33,481 bases of DNA from a virus: positions 1 through 33,481 of IMG/VR virus record IMGVR_UViG_3300005613_000244, one strand, 5' to 3'. Each line of letters begins with the position of its first letter. Positions within the stretch are counted from its first letter, which is position 1. The position numbers and the translations under genes are program-made. Positions 6,053 to 29,685 of the stretch are shown here, in pieces. Below the pieces are notes generated by a model. That model had not been told where the DNA came from, did no database searches, and worked only from the letters and a program-made list of their open reading frames with translations.

Positions 6053-8497
6053 TTAATTGATCATCCTTTTGAGTTTATTGCGTCCGGTGGGATTTTTTTC
6101 AAGCGCCCGGTTCAGTATAGTGAGCACGGAACCCGGGTCCCGGTTCATGGTCTCCATAAAACTTTTGGAATCGTTGGCATAGATATTGACTTCGTAGACG
6201 TCACCGGTTTTTTCTCGGCCCACATCGTTCGACCCTCGTCCCTCGCTTACCGCCGCAACGGAGGGGCTTGCCGTCCCCGCCTTCGGCGCCGGAATCACGA
6301 TTTCCCCGCGCTGAAGTATGGCCGGGAACTCATCCGGAGCCAGAGCAGGATATCCCCGGTGCAGCCGGGGCGCATGAGAGAACACGGAAGCCGGCACGTT
6401 TCGGGTGGGCGCCGTATCGCGTCCAACCTGTCCGCCGCTATGCCAAAGCGTAGATCCCCAGTCCGCGCCTAAGCCGACGTTGTCATCCAGCCCTCCGCCG
6501 AACACTGAGCGGATCCCTGAAAACAGATCTCCGAACAACCCGGAGCCCCCGGACGATCCTCCGCCGAACATCATTTCCTTCATCATCTGGCCCATCATAT
6601 TGGAAAAACTGTCCGACAAAGAACTGCAAAACGCCCGGAAATAATCCGCCGCCGAGTCCAGGTCGCCACGAAATACGTCATTGAAAAATGTAGAAAAACT
6701 ATTCTCGATGGCATCGCCGGTTCGCTCGGACAAATCCATTAGATATTGATGGTTTCCTCGAACCGCCGCCGCCCGTTCTTGATCCAGAGCCTTGAGGCGC
6801 TCAATCAGCCACTGGTGAGCCAGCACCTCATCTCCGGTGAGCTGCTCATAATCCTCGGCCTGTTTCTCCAGTTGGGACTTGCGGTATTCGTAGTAGTCTT
6901 CGGATTGAAATTTCAGGTCCGAATACATGGCCTCAAAGGCCTCCCGGGTTTTTTCCGCATCGGCGGCGGTCTGGTCGAACCCGGTAATATACTGACCCAC
7001 ATCCACCCGAAGCTGCTGCTCCATGATCTCAAACGTTCCTGACGGGATCACCAGGGCTTTTTGAAACTCTTCCTGAGCCTTGGCCACTTCAGCTATGAGC
7101 TTGTCATATTCTTTTTTGGCCGCGTCCGCAGCGCCGGTATCGGTGTCCTGAGTCGGCGTTATTTTCTTCGGCACGCCCAGATCCTCATCGGCGTCCGGGC
7201 GCTCTCCCCGACGGGCCTGCATGTCCGCGCGGAGCTGTGCCAGTTCGGCTCTGGCGGCCCGGATCTTTTTCGCATACTGATCCATTTTCTGGATGTTGCC
7301 GCCAGCCATGTCCTGGCCGCCCTGTTGGCGCATGAGCATCTCTTCGCGCTCTGCTTTGAGCCGCTCCAGCTCCTTAGTAATTCTTGCCCGCTCCTCGGGA
7401 TTCGTGTCTGTGGCATAAAACCGGCTCCAAAATCCGGGCTCGATTTTTTTGCTTAAATGCTCAATGGCATGGTCAATCTTGTTAATCTGGTTGGCATAAT
7501 ATTTTTCTGCCAGGATTCCGAAAACCGCCCGAAACCCATACACCGCCTTGGTCAAAGTTTCGAACCCAGCCATTATCAAGCCCACGGATGCCAGCACCCC
7601 GTCCGCCATGTCCGACGCCCAGATGTCCAGCTGGCCGTTCTTTTTGAGGCGGTCTATTTCATCGAGCAGGTCCCCCAGGCGCTCTTTCATGACCTGGAAC
7701 GGCCCGGACTGCATCACCTGGACGCGAAAGACGGTCCACTCCTTGGCCATCTTTCGGGTCATGCCGCCCCAGGTCTGCATCATGCGGTCCGTGGCGTCCC
7801 CGTATTTTGCGGCCATGCCCGTGAAAAACGCGTCCAGCCCCCTTTTGGAGTCCATCTGCCCCTTGGAAATTACGTCCACCATCTCGCCCACGCTCATGCC
7901 GAGCTGGTCCGCCATGATCGCCATCGCCGTTGGCACGGCCTCTCCCAACTGCTGGCGAAGCTCTTCCATCGAGACCACGCCCTTGCCCGCCATCTGTTGG
8001 ATGGCCACGGACGCCCGCTTGAGTGTCTCGTCGGTGCCACCGAAGGCCGCCACCCCGGCCAGCAACGCTTCAAGGCTGCCCGTGGTGGGATCGATGCCCA
8101 CGCTCCGGAATTTCACGAACGAATCCTGGATGGCGCTCAGCCCGAACGGTGCGTCCAGATCCATGATCCAGCCGAACGCGGCCCGGCCTTTTTCGGCGGT
8201 TCCATACAGCCCTTCCAGCATGGCCGTGGTGCGCTCCGCCTCCACGACGACCTCGTGAAACCCTTCGGACACCTGCGAGAGCTTCCAAAGCCCGAACGCG
8301 GTCCCCAACTTGATGGCCAACCCGTGGGTAAGGTTGATCTGCTTGTTGAACACGCCCGCGGATCGGGACATATTCTTAAAACCCGTGGCCCCTTTCTTGC
8401 CGGCCTTTTCAGATTCGGTTCCGATCTGGCGCAAAACCTTGACCCCGCCCTTGTCGTCAAACTGGATTTCTATTTGTATGGTATTGCTGTTTGCCAT
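6053..8497 (-). CDS. Tape measure protein
   Basis: 814 residues. The N-terminal third holds the tape-measure domain with text such as FRSVGIDPTTGSLEALLAGVAAFGG and GKGVVSMEELRQQLGEAVPTAM, typical of TIGR02675-like tape measures. A hydrophobic stretch near 300-330 (VLASVGLIMAGFETL) and long charged coiled coils (about 375-620) follow. The C-terminal part (about 650-700) is Gly/Ser-rich, then RGYPALAPDEFPAILQRGEIVIPA. It sets tail length and crosses the envelope at injection. A short heptamer-derived insert (SEGRG) lies near residue 760. It directly follows the G/GT genes, as expected in siphoviruses. The length predicts a tail of roughly 120 nm (rule of thumb about 1.5 angstrom per residue). 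Confidence 0.9.
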   Translation of the reverse strand: MANSNTIQIEIQFDDKGGVKVLRQIGTESEKAGKKGATGFKNMSRSAGVFNKQINLTHGLAIKLGTAFGLWKLSQVSEGFHEVVVEAERTTAMLEGLYGTAEKGRAAFGWIMDLDAPFGLSAIQDSFVKFRSVGIDPTTGSLEALLAGVAAFGGTDETLKRASVAIQQMAGKGVVSMEELRQQLGEAVPTAMAIMADQLGMSVGEMVDVISKGQMDSKRGLDAFFTGMAAKYGDATDRMMQTWGGMTRKMAKEWTVFRVQVMQSGPFQVMKERLGDLLDEIDRLKKNGQLDIWASDMADGVLASVGLIMAGFETLTKAVYGFRAVFGILAEKYYANQINKIDHAIEHLSKKIEPGFWSRFYATDTNPEERARITKELERLKAEREEMLMRQQGGQDMAGGNIQKMDQYAKKIRAARAELAQLRADMQARRGERPDADEDLGVPKKITPTQDTDTGAADAAKKEYDKLIAEVAKAQEEFQKALVIPSGTFEIMEQQLRVDVGQYITGFDQTAADAEKTREAFEAMYSDLKFQSEDYYEYRKSQLEKQAEDYEQLTGDEVLAHQWLIERLKALDQERAAAVRGNHQYLMDLSERTGDAIENSFSTFFNDVFRGDLDSAADYFRAFCSSLSDSFSNMMGQMMKEMMFGGGSSGGSGLFGDLFSGIRSVFGGGLDDNVGLGADWGSTLWHSGGQVGRDTAPTRNVPASVFSHAPRLHRGYPALAPDEFPAILQRGEIVIPAPKAGTASPSVAAVSEGRGSNDVGREKTGDVYEVNIYANDSKSFMETMNRDPGSVLTILNRALEKNPTGRNKLKRMIN

Positions 8498-8505
8498 AAA
8501 AAGCT

Positions 8506-8775
8506 CTAACCGCGAAGCGCCTCTTCAATTCTTCCCAAATCCATCCATTCTTCCACCGTCAAATCATTTGCCTCGAACGGATACCCGGCCTGCCTCAGCC
8601 AGCGCAGCCGGAATATCTTTATTGTATACGGATGAAGATCTTCGGCCTTTTTCTTGGGACAATTGTCGCAGGCCCATTCCAGCTCAGGTCCATCTCCCAT
8701 TTCCGCAATACATTTTGCCTGCTCCTTTTCATCACACAGCCCCTTTTTTATGGCCTCAAGATCTTCTTCTATGCG
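8506..8775 (-). CDS. T-type extension of the tail assembly chaperone (read by -1 frameshift)
   Basis: An 89-codon frame with no plausible start at its head: just upstream is a TGA, and the first ATG is 25 codons in (8700). It begins exactly where the slippery heptamer would deliver ribosomes from the upstream G-type gene (first codon CGC at 8775-8773, then RIEEDLEAIKKGLCDEKEQ). It carries CDNC and a helical end (LTVEEWMDLGRIEEALRG). In lambda and many siphoviruses the GT fusion is made at a few percent of G and recruits the tape measure. The fusion here would be 236 residues. Position between G and tape measure fits perfectly. If internal initiation at 8700 occurs, a 64-residue protein would be made instead. 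Confidence 0.8.
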   Translation of the reverse strand, partial: RIEEDLEAIKKGLCDEKEQAKCIAEMGDGPELEWACDNCPKKKAEDLHPYTIKIFRLRWLRQAGYPFEANDLTVEEWMDLGRIEEALRG

Positions 8776-9215
8776 TTTGGGTCCAAATCTTCTTCACCCT
8801 CTGTCTTCTGTCCTCTGTCCTCTGTCATCTGGTCCTCTTCCGACATTTGGACCGGCATATCAAACACCCGCGATGCCAGATACTCCACCAAGTCGGACGC
8901 ATACTTTTCGATATGCTCTTTCCACTCCGGGTAGTAATTGTCCGACGCCGGATCGCTGGCCATCGCCCGCCAGTCCTCTCCGATTTTGCGCTCGAAATCC
9001 CCCTCCCGGAATCCCCTTAAAATCTTCAGTCCATATTTTATGCGGGTTTCCACAATCCGATTGACCACTTTTCGGCCCCTGCGCTGGTATGCCTCGTTGG
9101 CATATGCCACCCGCTCTTTGGTGATCGGGGTGCGGTAAAACAACACGATTTCGGTGCCGGACAGATTGTCCTGAAACCGCATCTCATTGAGTTCGTCTCC
9201 TAATCGTCGAGCCAT
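8769..9215 (-). CDS. Tail assembly chaperone, G-type
   Basis: 148 residues between the tail tube and tape measure genes, the usual place of gpG. It is mostly helical and highly charged (MARRLGDELNEMRF, KILRGFREGDFERKIGEDW). GAGAGG precedes the ATG by about 7 bases. The C-terminal tail MTEDRGQKTEGEED comes from a heptamer repeat array, and the gene ends DPNA with a slippery C CCA AAC two codons before the TAG. No strong sequence family was recognised; the assignment rests on position, size and the frameshift signal. Confidence 0.8.
   Translation of the reverse strand: MARRLGDELNEMRFQDNLSGTEIVLFYRTPITKERVAYANEAYQRRGRKVVNRIVETRIKYGLKILRGFREGDFERKIGEDWRAMASDPASDNYYPEWKEHIEKYASDLVEYLASRVFDMPVQMSEEDQMTEDRGQKTEGEEDLDPNA
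8775..8781 (-). other. Programmed -1 ribosomal frameshift site (C CCA AAC)
   Basis: On the minus strand the end of the G-type gene reads GAC CCA AAC GCA TAG. The heptamer C CCA AAC fits X XXY YYZ exactly, so both tRNAs can re-pair as CCC AAA after a -1 slip. The -1 frame is closed by a TGA about seven codons upstream and open for 89 codons downstream. This is the arrangement known for tail G/GT genes in dsDNA phages. I did not find a convincing downstream pseudoknot by eye. Confidence 0.8.
8799..8830 (-). repeat. Heptamer array (minus-strand unit AGGACAG)
   Basis: On the minus strand the units are ATGACAG, AGGACAG, AGGACAG, AAGACAG, then AGGGTGA. The array lies inside the G-type chaperone gene and is translated as MTEDRGQKTEG. 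Three 7-bp units equal 21 bases, so the array can grow or shrink by three units without breaking the frame. Confidence 0.85.
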
Positions 9216-9241: not shown

Positions 9242-9306
9242 GTGGGGCAGGCGTTCCAGCCTGCCATTTTTTTCATTCCAATATCAGCAGGCTGGACAGC
9301 CTGCCC
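9242..9306. repeat. Paired REP-like palindromes
   Basis: GGCAGGCGTTCCAGCCTGCC and then, 20 or so bases later, GCAGGCTGGACAGCCTGCCC. Both form stems from GCAGGC/GCCTGC. They fill the gap between the G-type gene and the tail-tube gene and end four bases before the tail-tube stop codon. The same motif recurs at five other places in the window. Confidence 0.85.
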
Positions 9307-9309
9307 TCC

Positions 9310-10587
9310 TTATGCGGCGTAGGTTGACTGTAAATTTTTGGTTGCGGTGATCACCGATCCATACGTATCATCCTCCATCACATGCAGATCCCCGACCTCG
9401 GCGATGCGCTTGTCTCCCACGTTCAGCGGCGCAGTGACAACGCCCACCTTGGGAAAAACGATCCGGCTCTGGTACTTGTGAGGGGTGTCATAAATAGCGC
9501 CCTCGGCCAGGATCTCCACGCCGAAATCGTCGTTTTCGTCAATGTGATTCTGGATGATATAGTCCCGGAATTCGCGGTCCAGTTTCAGCACCTGGGTTCG
9601 CGCAGGCCGGAAACACCGGTTGGCATAGGCCCCGTCCGCACCCAGAGAAAACATGATCTCCAGGTTATTGTTGAAATTCCACTCGATGGAATTGACTTCC
9701 GCAGACAGTTCCCTTCCCCCGTTGAACGTGGTCCCGTCCCAGGTTCCGCCCAGTTTGAACGTGACCTCGCTCACCCTCAGCGGCGTTTCCGCAACGCGGG
9801 ACGGAAAGCTCATCCACCCGCTTTCGTCGGGAATATAGAGCAGCTTATATGATTTGCTGTCTCCGCTGCCGCCGGGACTGGTGATGGTGATCACCGCAGG
9901 CGTGGCATCGCTTACCGCCGAATATTCCACCTCGGTCCAGGTGCCGGCGGCCAGCGCGATGCGGATGCGCTGCATGTTGTCCAGACGGGCCTGGGCTGTG
10001 GCGCCTTCCACGCCGTTGGCCGCCAGGGTCAGGGATACGGCATTATCCAGGGCGCTCAGGGTTTCCTCATAGGTGTTATTCGTGAATTTGCCCGTGCCCT
10101 TGGCCGCGGCAACGATTTTCACCCAGTCATCCCTGGCGAATGTTGCCGTAAAACTGTCGATGAACATGGACGCGAACAATCGTTTCAACACGGTCTGGCC
10201 GAAGCGCATGCCCGCAGTGAATGACGGAAGGCTCCGGTAGGCGCCAACATCCCCGCCAATCGGGGTGACCGTGTGTTCGTATCCGGAGCCGGCTGCCGCC
10301 GTTGAAATCGTGCCCAGGGCATAGGCGAAAATGAACGCCAGGTGCTGGGGCTGGGCCTTGTTGAAGGTCAGCGGAAGCGACGACAGATTGCCCAGGTCGT
10401 AAATGGTGTCCGCCTCTTCCTTGCCGGTCATTTCTTCCGCATTGTCCTCGCGCCTTGGCTCCAGGTTGGCCACATCGCTCATGTCCACCAGCATGGATGT
10501 ATCTAACGTCTGCTCGGTGTTGATACCCGTCTCCTGATTGTTCGCGGACACCGCCAGTAGGTTATGGGTTGCTCTCCAGCTTCTCAT
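9310..10587 (-). CDS. Major tail tube protein (siphovirus type)
   Basis: 425 residues, long for a tube protein. It begins with a segment typical of tube proteins that mentions LDTSMLVDMSDVANLEPRRED (about 28-48), and ends with VGDKRIAEVGDLHVMEDDTYGSVITATKNLQ. A middle section, about 180-240, is an extra beta region that includes an Ig-like AVITITSPGGSGDSKSYKL. The gene lies after the head completion genes and before G/GT and tape measure, where a tail tube belongs. GGAGGTGACAA precedes the ATG. No sheath gene is present, so the tail is non-contractile. The family name was not recognised; the role is inferred mainly from place and style. Confidence 0.8.
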   Translation of the reverse strand: MRSWRATHNLLAVSANNQETGINTEQTLDTSMLVDMSDVANLEPRREDNAEEMTGKEEADTIYDLGNLSSLPLTFNKAQPQHLAFIFAYALGTISTAAAGSGYEHTVTPIGGDVGAYRSLPSFTAGMRFGQTVLKRLFASMFIDSFTATFARDDWVKIVAAAKGTGKFTNNTYEETLSALDNAVSLTLAANGVEGATAQARLDNMQRIRIALAAGTWTEVEYSAVSDATPAVITITSPGGSGDSKSYKLLYIPDESGWMSFPSRVAETPLRVSEVTFKLGGTWDGTTFNGGRELSAEVNSIEWNFNNNLEIMFSLGADGAYANRCFRPARTQVLKLDREFRDYIIQNHIDENDDFGVEILAEGAIYDTPHKYQSRIVFPKVGVVTAPLNVGDKRIAEVGDLHVMEDDTYGSVITATKNLQSTYAA

Positions 10588-10836: not shown

Positions 10837-10865
10837 TGGCAGGCTGGAACGCCCGCCCTACAGGT
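10837..10865. repeat. REP-like palindrome (degenerate)
   Basis: TGGCAGGCTGGAACGCCCGCCCTACAGG lies between the 10825 start and the DUF1834 gene. The left arm matches the other copies; the right arm has diverged (GCCCGCC for GCCTGCC). Confidence 0.75.
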
Positions 10866-12615: not shown

Positions 12616-12650
12616 GAATATTCAATATTCAATATTCAATATTCAATTGA
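12616..12650. repeat. Heptamer array AATATTC x4 ending AATTGA
   Basis: G then four perfect AATATTC units and AATTGA, ending one base before the gpT stop codon. The same 35 bases are found at 22752-22786, also just after a phage gene. Confidence 0.95.
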
Positions 12651-14750: not shown

Positions 14751-14863
14751 GTGGGGCAGGCTGTAGGGCAGGCTGTAGGGCAGGCTTTCCAGCCTGCCAT
14801 TCCCAGCCTGTCATTTCAAACCTGCCAATTGTTGGCAGACAGGAATGTCCGCCCTACAAGTTT
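14751..14863. repeat. REP-like cluster, two motif types
   Basis: Three tandem GGGCAGGCTGTA-type arms end in the palindrome GGCAGGCTTTCCAGCCTGCC, followed by CCCAGCCTGTC. A second motif TTGGCAGACAGGAATGTCCG then reaches into the end of the protease gene. The second motif recurs twice at 20335-20423. Confidence 0.88.
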
Positions 14864-16950: not shown

Positions 16951-16977
16951 TGTAGGGCAGGCTTTCCAGCCTGCCAT
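16951..16977. repeat. REP-like palindrome
   Basis: TGTAGGGCAGGCTTTCCAGCCTGCCAT, with the stem GGCAGGCT/AGCCTGCC perfect. It sits in the gap after the portal gene's stop and before the 95-residue gene, followed by two CTGCCATCAATCAT-like words. Confidence 0.88.
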
Positions 16978-20334: not shown

Positions 20335-20423
20335 GTGTGGGGCAGGATTTCCATCCTGCCAATTGTTGGCAGACAGGAATGTCCACTCTTCGGCAGACAG
20401 GAATGTCTGCCCTACAGGTTTTC
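20335..20423. repeat. REP-like cluster: GGCAGGAT palindrome plus two GGCAGACAGGAATGT motifs
   Basis: GGGGCAGGATTTCCATCCTGCC, then TTGGCAGACAGGAATGTCCA, then CGGCAGACAGGAATGTCTGCCC. The last forms GGCAGACA/TGTCTGCC. The cluster fills the gap between the coiled-coil gene and the HTH small-terminase candidate. Confidence 0.88.
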
Positions 20424-22751: not shown

Positions 22752-22786
22752 GAATATTCAATATTCAATATTCAATATTCAATTGA
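22752..22786. repeat. Heptamer array AATATTC x4 ending AATTGA
   Basis: Identical over 35 bases to 12616-12650. It ends one base before the stop codon of the 22788-23516 gene. Confidence 0.95.
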
Positions 22787-27454: not shown

Positions 27455-29685
27455 CAGACGCTCTCCTTATATATTTCCCAGTACTCCCTGGTGTTAATGT
27501 CCATCCGCTCTTCATACTCGCGCATGAACACTTCATCCTCCGATGATATCCCCGGTTCTCCGGTTCTCCGTTTCCCCGGTTCGCACATCCGGTCCACACA
27601 CCACTGATACCGGTCCACCTCGCGGGTAAAAATGGGTTTATTCTCATGCCGGTACGTCTCGATCTGCCGGATGTCCTCCGCGATCTCTTCCGCTGTCTGC
27701 ACGGGTGCGCGCGACTCCATGATGATCCGGCGCTGTTTGGGAGTGCCCACAACGACCTCGGGTTTTTCGTCCGCAGGAACCCTGGAATACTCCAGAAAAT
27801 CCGGGATATTGGCCGTTATTTTGCGGTAGGCTTCCAGCACGGTTTTGCGCTTGGACCGCTTCTCCTGGATCTTGCGCCCCGCCAGATCTTGATTCTTCAT
27901 GGATGAATATTCTATGGGCACGGCCCGGCAGAGGAACTCGCCCTCGTGAAAGCAGAGAACCCACTCCGGGTCCATAGGATCGTAGCGAACCTCCACCCGG
28001 GTTTTGTGCAGGCTGTCCAGCCGGTCATTCTCATACAGGACACTCCTAAAGGATATCCGCCCCCGGTCCACCACGCGTCCGCCCCGGTCCGCCCGGGCCA
28101 GAAATACCATATCGGTCTCGTCGGGCCGCAGCCACCGGGGACGCCATCCCGAGACATAGCAGGCCCGAAGAACGTCCATCGGCACGCAGTGTTTGGGTTT
28201 TGGCTGCCAGCTCCATTCCCGGATCGCCCCCCGGTGAGTTTTTTTAGAATTATAATAATCCATCGCCCGGTACATGGTCAGGGCGAATTCTGAAAATGTG
28301 AGCAGCTTCCCGGATCGCGCCAGCCGGTCGATCTCTTTCTGATCCACCTCGGACACCTCGTCCGGGGCCCCTAATTTCTTCACACCCCCGGGCACATGGA
28401 AATGATCCCGGAGTATGCCTTCAAATATATTGAATGAAGACTCGATCATTTTGGCTTTTGCGTTGCGGACAATGGCTTTTTTGTGGGTTCCCGGAAGGAT
28501 GGCGCACGGATTGATCAGCTCCGGATTTTTCGGCAGCTCCAGCTCCGCGTCCAGGGTGCGCTCGGCATTGACCCCTATGGTTCTAAGGGCCGCCATGATA
28601 CCCATAATATAGCGGGATAGTTCCGGCTTGCCGTTATCCGTGTATATGGCCGTGGGCCTGCCGAACATGCGGCATCCGATACGAAGCGCCAGGCCAACCA
28701 ATTGAGAATCATATTTTTTGTCCAGGGCGCCGCCGTAAAAACACCGGGTGCGAAGATCCTGCCAAAAAAACCCCTCCGGGCGGAACACCTCTCCGGTGTC
28801 GTCGTCCGTGACCCAGAAATCGAACCGGTGCTGGTCCCCGACCAGGATCTCGAAGGGCGCCAGGTCCGCGTAGGATCTGAGCACTGGGGGAAGAACATTG
28901 TCCAGGGCTCGGAGCCCGCCGCTCTGGAGCGCCAGAAGTTGAGGCGACACCTTTTTATTATACCATTGCAGGGCCGACTCGTATCCGCCGATCCGCCAGC
29001 CCTGTTTTCCGGCCTCCATCTGGAGAATTTCATACAGAGCGTCCTTGGCGATCTTGCGGTGTTCCCGCTTCAGGCACAGTCCCACCCACCAGTCCAGGGC
29101 CTCTTTCTGCCATGCCCTGGGTTTGCCTCGATTTTTCTTGGTATGCTCCAGCCCGACAAGGCCCTGGGCGCGATATCTCTTTATATATTTGTATAGGGTC
29201 TGGTGCGTGACATTGTGTCGTTTTGCCACCAGACGGATATGTTTTGATTTTTTAGCGCCCCTGGGAACATTGAGCGCCTCCTGAACCATATTGGCCAGCC
29301 GCCGCACGCGCGGATCGCGAAGGGTGCTTTCGGATAATGTGACATCCGTATTCCATGCTTCTTTGTGGGGCAGGCTGTAGGGCAGGCTTTCCAGCCTGCC
29401 AAATGCCACACCCATCATTTTCGACGATGCAGCCAGCGCCGCCTCCGGCGCCAGGGTCGGAATAATATCACCCGCTATAGTGTTTGATATATTTTCCATT
29501 TTTTCAATTACAAGTCTTTGTATCTCCGCCGGCAATGCTGAGATGATATACTCCCGGCGGATGGTTCCGTTATTGCGGACGTTCTCGTACGGCCATCCGT
29601 CCTTGTTCGCCTTCCTGGTTACAGACTGGATGGTCATTCCTATAGCCTCCGCAATTTGTGCGGCAGACACCGCACCGGTGCTCAC
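27448..29685 (-). CDS. DDE transposase (MuA)
   Basis: 745 residues, GTG start at 29685, overlapping the upstream stop (GTGA). N-terminal HTH (VSAAQIAEAIGMTIQSVTRKA, about 6-26); second HTH (HNVTHQTLYKYIKRYRAQG, about 157-175). DDE core: Asp284 in LVGDQHRF, Asp350 in IYTDNGK, Glu415 in KMIESSF. Spacing 66 and 65; Mu has 67 and 56. C-terminal beta-barrel about 500-610. Residues 95-106 (FGRLESLPYSLP) come from a REP-like palindrome inserted in frame in the linker between the HTH domains. An octamer array gives CEPGKRRTGEPG near the C-terminus. It carries out replicative transposition. Confidence 0.96.
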   Translation of the reverse strand: MSTGAVSAAQIAEAIGMTIQSVTRKANKDGWPYENVRNNGTIRREYIISALPAEIQRLVIEKMENISNTIAGDIIPTLAPEAALAASSKMMGVAFGRLESLPYSLPHKEAWNTDVTLSESTLRDPRVRRLANMVQEALNVPRGAKKSKHIRLVAKRHNVTHQTLYKYIKRYRAQGLVGLEHTKKNRGKPRAWQKEALDWWVGLCLKREHRKIAKDALYEILQMEAGKQGWRIGGYESALQWYNKKVSPQLLALQSGGLRALDNVLPPVLRSYADLAPFEILVGDQHRFDFWVTDDDTGEVFRPEGFFWQDLRTRCFYGGALDKKYDSQLVGLALRIGCRMFGRPTAIYTDNGKPELSRYIMGIMAALRTIGVNAERTLDAELELPKNPELINPCAILPGTHKKAIVRNAKAKMIESSFNIFEGILRDHFHVPGGVKKLGAPDEVSEVDQKEIDRLARSGKLLTFSEFALTMYRAMDYYNSKKTHRGAIREWSWQPKPKHCVPMDVLRACYVSGWRPRWLRPDETDMVFLARADRGGRVVDRGRISFRSVLYENDRLDSLHKTRVEVRYDPMDPEWVLCFHEGEFLCRAVPIEYSSMKNQDLAGRKIQEKRSKRKTVLEAYRKITANIPDFLEYSRVPADEKPEVVVGTPKQRRIIMESRAPVQTAEEIAEDIRQIETYRHENKPIFTREVDRYQWCVDRMCEPGKRRTGEPGISSEDEVFMREYEERMDINTREYWEIYKESVCN
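27550..27583. repeat. Octamer array, unit CCGGTTCT, inside the transposase
   Basis: CCCGGTTC, TCCGGTTC, TCCGTTTC, CCCGGTTC; translated on the minus strand as CEPGKRRTGEPG near the C-terminus of MuA. Same unit as the 25436-25468 array. Confidence 0.85.
29363..29401. repeat. REP-like palindrome inserted in the transposase gene
   Basis: TTGTGGGGCAGGCTGTAGGG then CAGGCTTTCCAGCCTGCCA. It matches the intergenic elements at 14751-14800 and 16951-16977, but here it lies inside the transposase open frame and is read through as FGRLESLPYSLPH. Confidence 0.93.

Follow-up and report, generated by a model that had tools for sequence, protein, structure and literature searches.

How the two overlapping reading frames at positions 8506-9215 on the minus strand are expressed is the central question raised by this locus. 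The window, the whole 33,481-nucleotide stretch of viral DNA analysed here, was described in an earlier note as encoding a G/GT tail chaperone pair through a programmed -1 frameshift in a Mu-like phage. The best explanation, to which we assign a probability of roughly 0.9, is that 9215-8506 (-) is a G/GT tail-assembly chaperone gene expressed with a -1 frameshift, in a transposable phage with a Mu-like head. The frame offset, the missing start codon, the slip site, the pattern of selection, the predicted fold and the tape-measure neighbour all agree with such a pair.

Gene G encodes the zero-frame product, a 148-residue tail-assembly chaperone, at 8769-9215 (-), as indicated by its open reading frame, about 125 related loci and the predicted fold. 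It starts at ATG 9215 and stops at TAG 8771-8769 (-), with the C-terminus ...EEDLDPNA. The slip site C_CCA_AAC (8775-8781, -) lies in phase with G, one sense codon ahead of the stop, the gene ending GAC CCA AAC GCA TAG. A TGA at 8796-8794 closes the -1 frame 12 nt before the heptamer, and from 8793 the frame is open to the TAG at 8508-8506. This extension, the T domain (8506-8793, -), is recognised by the open frame, its relatives, omega ratios and its predicted fold. After the slip it would contribute 89 residues from RIEED, in a sequence beginning RIEEDLEAIKKGLC, for a predicted fusion of 147 + 89 = 236 residues. No ATG, GTG or TTG occurs in the window's -1 frame before ATG 8700 or at the junction, and ATG 8700, the sole common start codon in that frame, gives a 64-aa ORF. 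The earlier note's coordinates for the G ORF, the heptamer and the -1 frame all hold, as do its 89 codons, 236-residue fusion and 64-aa ORF; it also rightly anticipated that a start-to-stop annotation would misreport the locus, either as G alone or as G with a spurious 64-aa gene. Just ahead of the slip site, at 8798-8838, the 7-base unit CCTCTGT is repeated in tandem in 5.7 copies and encodes a linker around TEDRGQKTEG, whose length may differ from phage to phage.

The neighbouring genes place the pair where a G/GT pair belongs, between a probable major tail protein gene and a tape-measure gene. The tape-measure protein gene lies directly downstream at 6053-8497 (-) and matches PF20155 TMP_3 (E 1.5e-23) and PHROG 1292. 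The gene directly upstream, at 9310-10587 (-), probably encodes the major tail protein, judging from its position, and has a weak match to PHROG 290, a minor tail protein family (E 2.7e-4); its homologue precedes G in 89 of 114 loci. Other genes of the window encode a Mu-like transposase, an AAA/TniB-like ATPase, GemA, a Mu portal, F, a protease, the gpT head protein and Gp36, together with the tail-tip proteins DUF2460 and a baseplate-hub protein. The description as a Mu-like phage stands for the head, protease, portal and transposase, whereas the genes for the baseplate and tail tip differ from those of Mu.

The identity of the G protein was examined through its predicted structure, an AlphaFold model with a pLDDT of 90.5. 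When 752 PDB chains were re-aligned to this model, five reached Z >= 2, with four entries listed: 3fgx (Z 6.8), 3klu (YqbN, 4.8), the HK97 tail-assembly chaperone 2ob9 (4.2) and 3pes of phage YuA (2.7), all middling values (2.7-6.8) at 8-13% identity. We take 3fgx, 3klu and 3pes to be chaperone-type tail proteins. Several proteins named tail assembly chaperone were also among the top matches of the model in BFVD, while Foldseek alone against the PDB returned nothing with E < 0.001. A tail-assembly chaperone fold is thus supported for the G model. Searches of G and the extension gave no significant match for any member in Pfam, PHROGs or NCBIfam, and tblastn against INPHARED phages gave none. 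The pair is a previously unnamed G/GT family, of a kind itself well known in tailed phages, and adds to the known chaperones a family found mainly in uncultivated viruses and Desulfobacterota contigs.

Expression from this locus would proceed as follows. The majority of ribosomes would halt at TAG 8771-8769 and release gpG, 148 residues long, while a minority would slip back by one base at C_CCA_AAC. In this slip the Pro-tRNA would exchange its pairing with CCA for one with CCC, and the Asn-tRNA might or might not move along from AAC to AAA; the shifted ribosomes would read 89 further codons in the -1 frame to produce the 236-residue gpGT. In lambda, the tape measure is a binding partner of both gpG and gpGT, and the T domain is the part that binds the major tail protein (PMC5009743). 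By analogy, the tape-measure protein would be coated by gpG, and the major tail protein would be brought in by GT through its T domain. Synthesis of the fusion, the fraction of ribosomes that shift, hence the product ratio, and the roles of the products are what we infer.

Examining related loci is crucial in this case. The heptamer CCCAAAC is not rare in itself, with three occurrences in the window against 6.8 expected, and the case therefore depends on comparison with relatives. Profile scans identified these in viral contigs and among Desulfobacterota, where MAG contigs predominate and Desulfobacter vibrioformis also appears, and G and the extension were placed in each locus by a script with profile HMMs. 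Apart from the window's own, the 114 distinct junctions come from contigs of environmental viruses or of Desulfobacterota (MAG); raw counts are inflated by the near-copies L076-L085. The extension overlaps G at an offset of -1 in 88 of 88 distinct junctions in the first set and in 114 of 114 with the added loci, which answers affirmatively the earlier proposal to align related phages for conservation of the offset. Of 88 relatives, 59 have an in-frame canonical heptamer at a distance of 9-18 nt ahead of the point where conservation of the extension begins; the rate inside G genes gives an expectation of 1.03, and the nominal binomial value ignores relatedness. This excess over chance is a phased site at a fixed place near the end of G.

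The signal at the shift point varies considerably within the family. In classes named post hoc, with the data already seen, the 114 junctions comprise 40 with C_CCT, 30 with AAAAAA(C/G), 17 with GGGAAA(C/G), 11 with GGAC_TGA, seven with CCCAAAC, four with another GGA before the stop, and five others. AAAAAAC is the commonest tandem heptamer, and CCCAAAC is shared by the window with L003, L044, L054, L055, L058 and L061. Within the C_CCT class, TTT follows as the next -1 codon in 22 cases, TAC in 10, TTC in five, TAT in two and TGG in one. This codon is therefore aromatic in all 40 junctions (CCCTTTN included), compared with 57 of 157 in-frame C_CCT occurrences elsewhere in the loci. The class requires eight changes on a tree that is quick and has many open forks. 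C_CCU shift points outside XXXYYYZ occur in L002 (530-550), L005 (2050-2075), L046, L064, L091, L182, L183, L195, L205 and L215. The GGAC_TGA class, located at the end of G in L006, L021, L022, L025, L050, L093, L100, L104, L108, L113 and L117, has 11 changes for its 11 members on the same tree, at least five of them forced by well-supported branches. Its GAC always follows a G (expected fraction 0.32 per codon), and GAC-TAA or GAC-TAG without a canonical site is absent from the 114 junctions; the excess of TGA relative to AAC-stop junctions has a Fisher p of 0.003, with kinship ignored.

These observations bear on how the shift is signalled. It is conceivable that one -1 shift is served by several interchangeable signals, some of them outside X_XXY_YYZ (C_CCU and G_GAC_UGA), and that the window's own CCCAAAC is driven from the P site and fits the tandem rule by chance; this proposal is tentative, its chances falling just short of even. 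At C_CCU, only the P-site Pro-tRNA would be able to slip in many members. At G_GAC_UGA, the Asp-tRNA would move to GGA, with a G-U pair in the middle position and a weak stop codon next in line. For this last class there are two alternatives, this re-pairing of the Asp-tRNA ahead of the waiting UGA and a start at the CUG in CUGA, and the evidence favours the first, because the preceding G is fixed. Such sites outside XXXYYYZ have precedent, since PRFect lists further motifs of this type, including GGGGGAA, in annotated chaperone frameshifts and discusses G:U re-pairing (PMC10885494). GGGGGAA is present in L121 and GGGGAA in L038.

The nearest relatives bring the same question to the window itself. 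The earlier note had described C CCA AAC as fitting the X XXY YYZ rule exactly, which is correct for the window, where the in-frame tandem heptamer is perfect; the rule is not kept in the nearest relatives L002 and L005, nor in a minority of the others. L002 (79% identity over 197 alignment columns) reads CCCTACC and L005 reads CCCTATC, while L003 has CCCAAAC. The part common to the window and its nearest relatives is GGACCC, with TACC and TATC replacing AAAC in L002 and L005 and making a tandem slip impossible there. Since GGACCC is shared, comparison of these sequences suggests that Pro-tRNA re-pairing is likely to be the constant part of the mechanism and the A-site slip dispensable. Within the best explanation, the Pro-tRNA alone could then shift at C_CCA with the A site empty, giving a fusion that reads DP-K-RIEED. 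The 40 C_CCT junctions, with an aromatic next -1 codon and a variable zero-frame codon, speak for this sub-mechanism, and the perfect tandem heptamer in the window and six other relatives speaks against it; it is a possibility to which we give somewhat under half the weight. The previously proposed junction DPN-RIEED is accordingly only partly secure: a tandem slip is possible in the window, but Lys may stand in place of Asn, and DPK-RIEED is worth searching alongside DPN-RIEED in proteomics data. None of the open-access papers searched gave CCCAAAC as a frameshift site.

The extension could instead be a separate gene, translated either from ATG 8700 or by reinitiation after termination at the G stop, and the presence of that ATG in the extension frame is in keeping with this. 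The extension is conserved from immediately behind the shift point onward (EDLxAIxxGLC), and ATG 8700 comes much later, some 25 codons into the conserved domain. A start there would lose the first 25 or so residues, including several positions invariant in the six closest relatives, which makes ATG 8700 a very improbable start for the extension. Homologues with the extension as its own gene, named in the earlier note as what would refute frameshifting, were looked for, with one candidate in 114: in L034 (2480-2510) an ATGA stop/start overlap is preceded by GAGGTGG, and the extension may be a separate gene there. The GGAC_TGA relatives read CTGA, which makes a CUG start overlapping UGA possible. 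The window junction lacks ATG, GTG and TTG, the relatives other than L034 are without a convincing separate start, and a separate gene would leave the canonical slip sites at their fixed place without a reason. This explanation is accordingly judged highly improbable. The last explanation, one ORF split into two frames by an indel or a sequencing error, is conceivable for a single metagenomic record but deserves practically no weight, assembly error being ruled out by the identical -1 offset in all 114 distinct junctions from many assemblies, MAG contigs included.

Selection and predicted structure were also assessed for the extension. The omega between the window and L002, its nearest relative, is 0.09 for the extension (dS 0.94), and the median over 96 pairs is 0.11, close to the 0.09 of G. 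Comparison of these sequences places the extension under strong purifying selection. Its predicted fold consists of five helices with a pLDDT of 93. Foldseek against the PDB gave no significant match for this model, and VIA-align gave weak, unrelated rows only, which does not imply that the fold is novel. Four cysteines, C14, C22, C36 and C39 of the extension (8509-8775, -), are conserved in at least 90% of 81 relatives, the stretch holding C39 being lost in L002; this conservation suggests that they perhaps form a metal site in the T domain.

Stimulatory elements are a further component of frameshift signals. A Shine-Dalgarno-like sequence, GAGGGTGA (8794-8801, -), is a possible stimulator 12 nt upstream of the slip site, pairing with the anti-SD at -6.9 kcal/mol, and its last three bases form the -1 frame stop. 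In the window it is no stronger than the acidic codons predict, while across the family such sequences are enriched over synonymous controls (z -3.8, with relatedness ignored). Downstream RNA structure is unsupported as the window's stimulator, as the sequence following the slip site forms no stable structure (z about +1); averaged over the family, z is -0.96.

Comparison with known systems clarifies which features are shared. Lambda gpG/gpGT has the same order of major tail protein, G/GT and tape measure, a -1 shift just ahead of the G stop and a long overlapping extension without a start, but slips at GGGAAAG, whereas the window's pair has CCCAAAC and no match to any curated family; its T domain differs in having five helices and four conserved Cys, with no fold match found. 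The HK97-type chaperone 2ob9, together with 3fgx, 3klu and 3pes, resembles the G domain in fold at middling Z, but identity is 8-13%, and at the level tested the extension shows no relationship. Pseudomonas phage LPB1 (Casadabanvirus) has a Mu-like head with a major head protein 62% identical, and its gp42/gp43, which occupy the same slot, are annotated as a tail assembly chaperone with -1 translational frameshifting, so this architecture is already known in transposable phages. The slip region and T domain of LPB1 differ, the G proteins have no detectable relation, and profile comparison of the LPB1 chaperone with the window family revealed no similarity. Mu itself uses a -2 shift (PMC5009743). 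Burkholderia phage KL1 gp18/gp19 belongs to another phage group and shares with L008, L032 and L110 a heptamer directly before the stop, the predicted GGGAAAC immediately ahead of TGA (PMC3483164), in place of the window's CCCAAAC.

The variety of interchangeable shift signals among relatives is the most interesting part of this family. It offers 114 homologous shift points whose slip signal has changed independently many times, a natural series for the sequence rules of bacterial -1 frameshifting.

Other repeats were observed in the window. The 20-base inverted repeat GGCAGGCTGGAAAGCCTGCC is present in seven copies with at most two mismatches, where none is expected by chance, at 9246-9265, 9286-9305, 10838-10857, 14779-14798, 16956-16975, 20341-20360 and 29381-29400, and is a candidate dispersed mobile repeat or terminator-like element. 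The 7-base unit AATATTC forms two arrays 10 kb apart, at 12617-12647 and 22753-22783, each of 4.4 copies.
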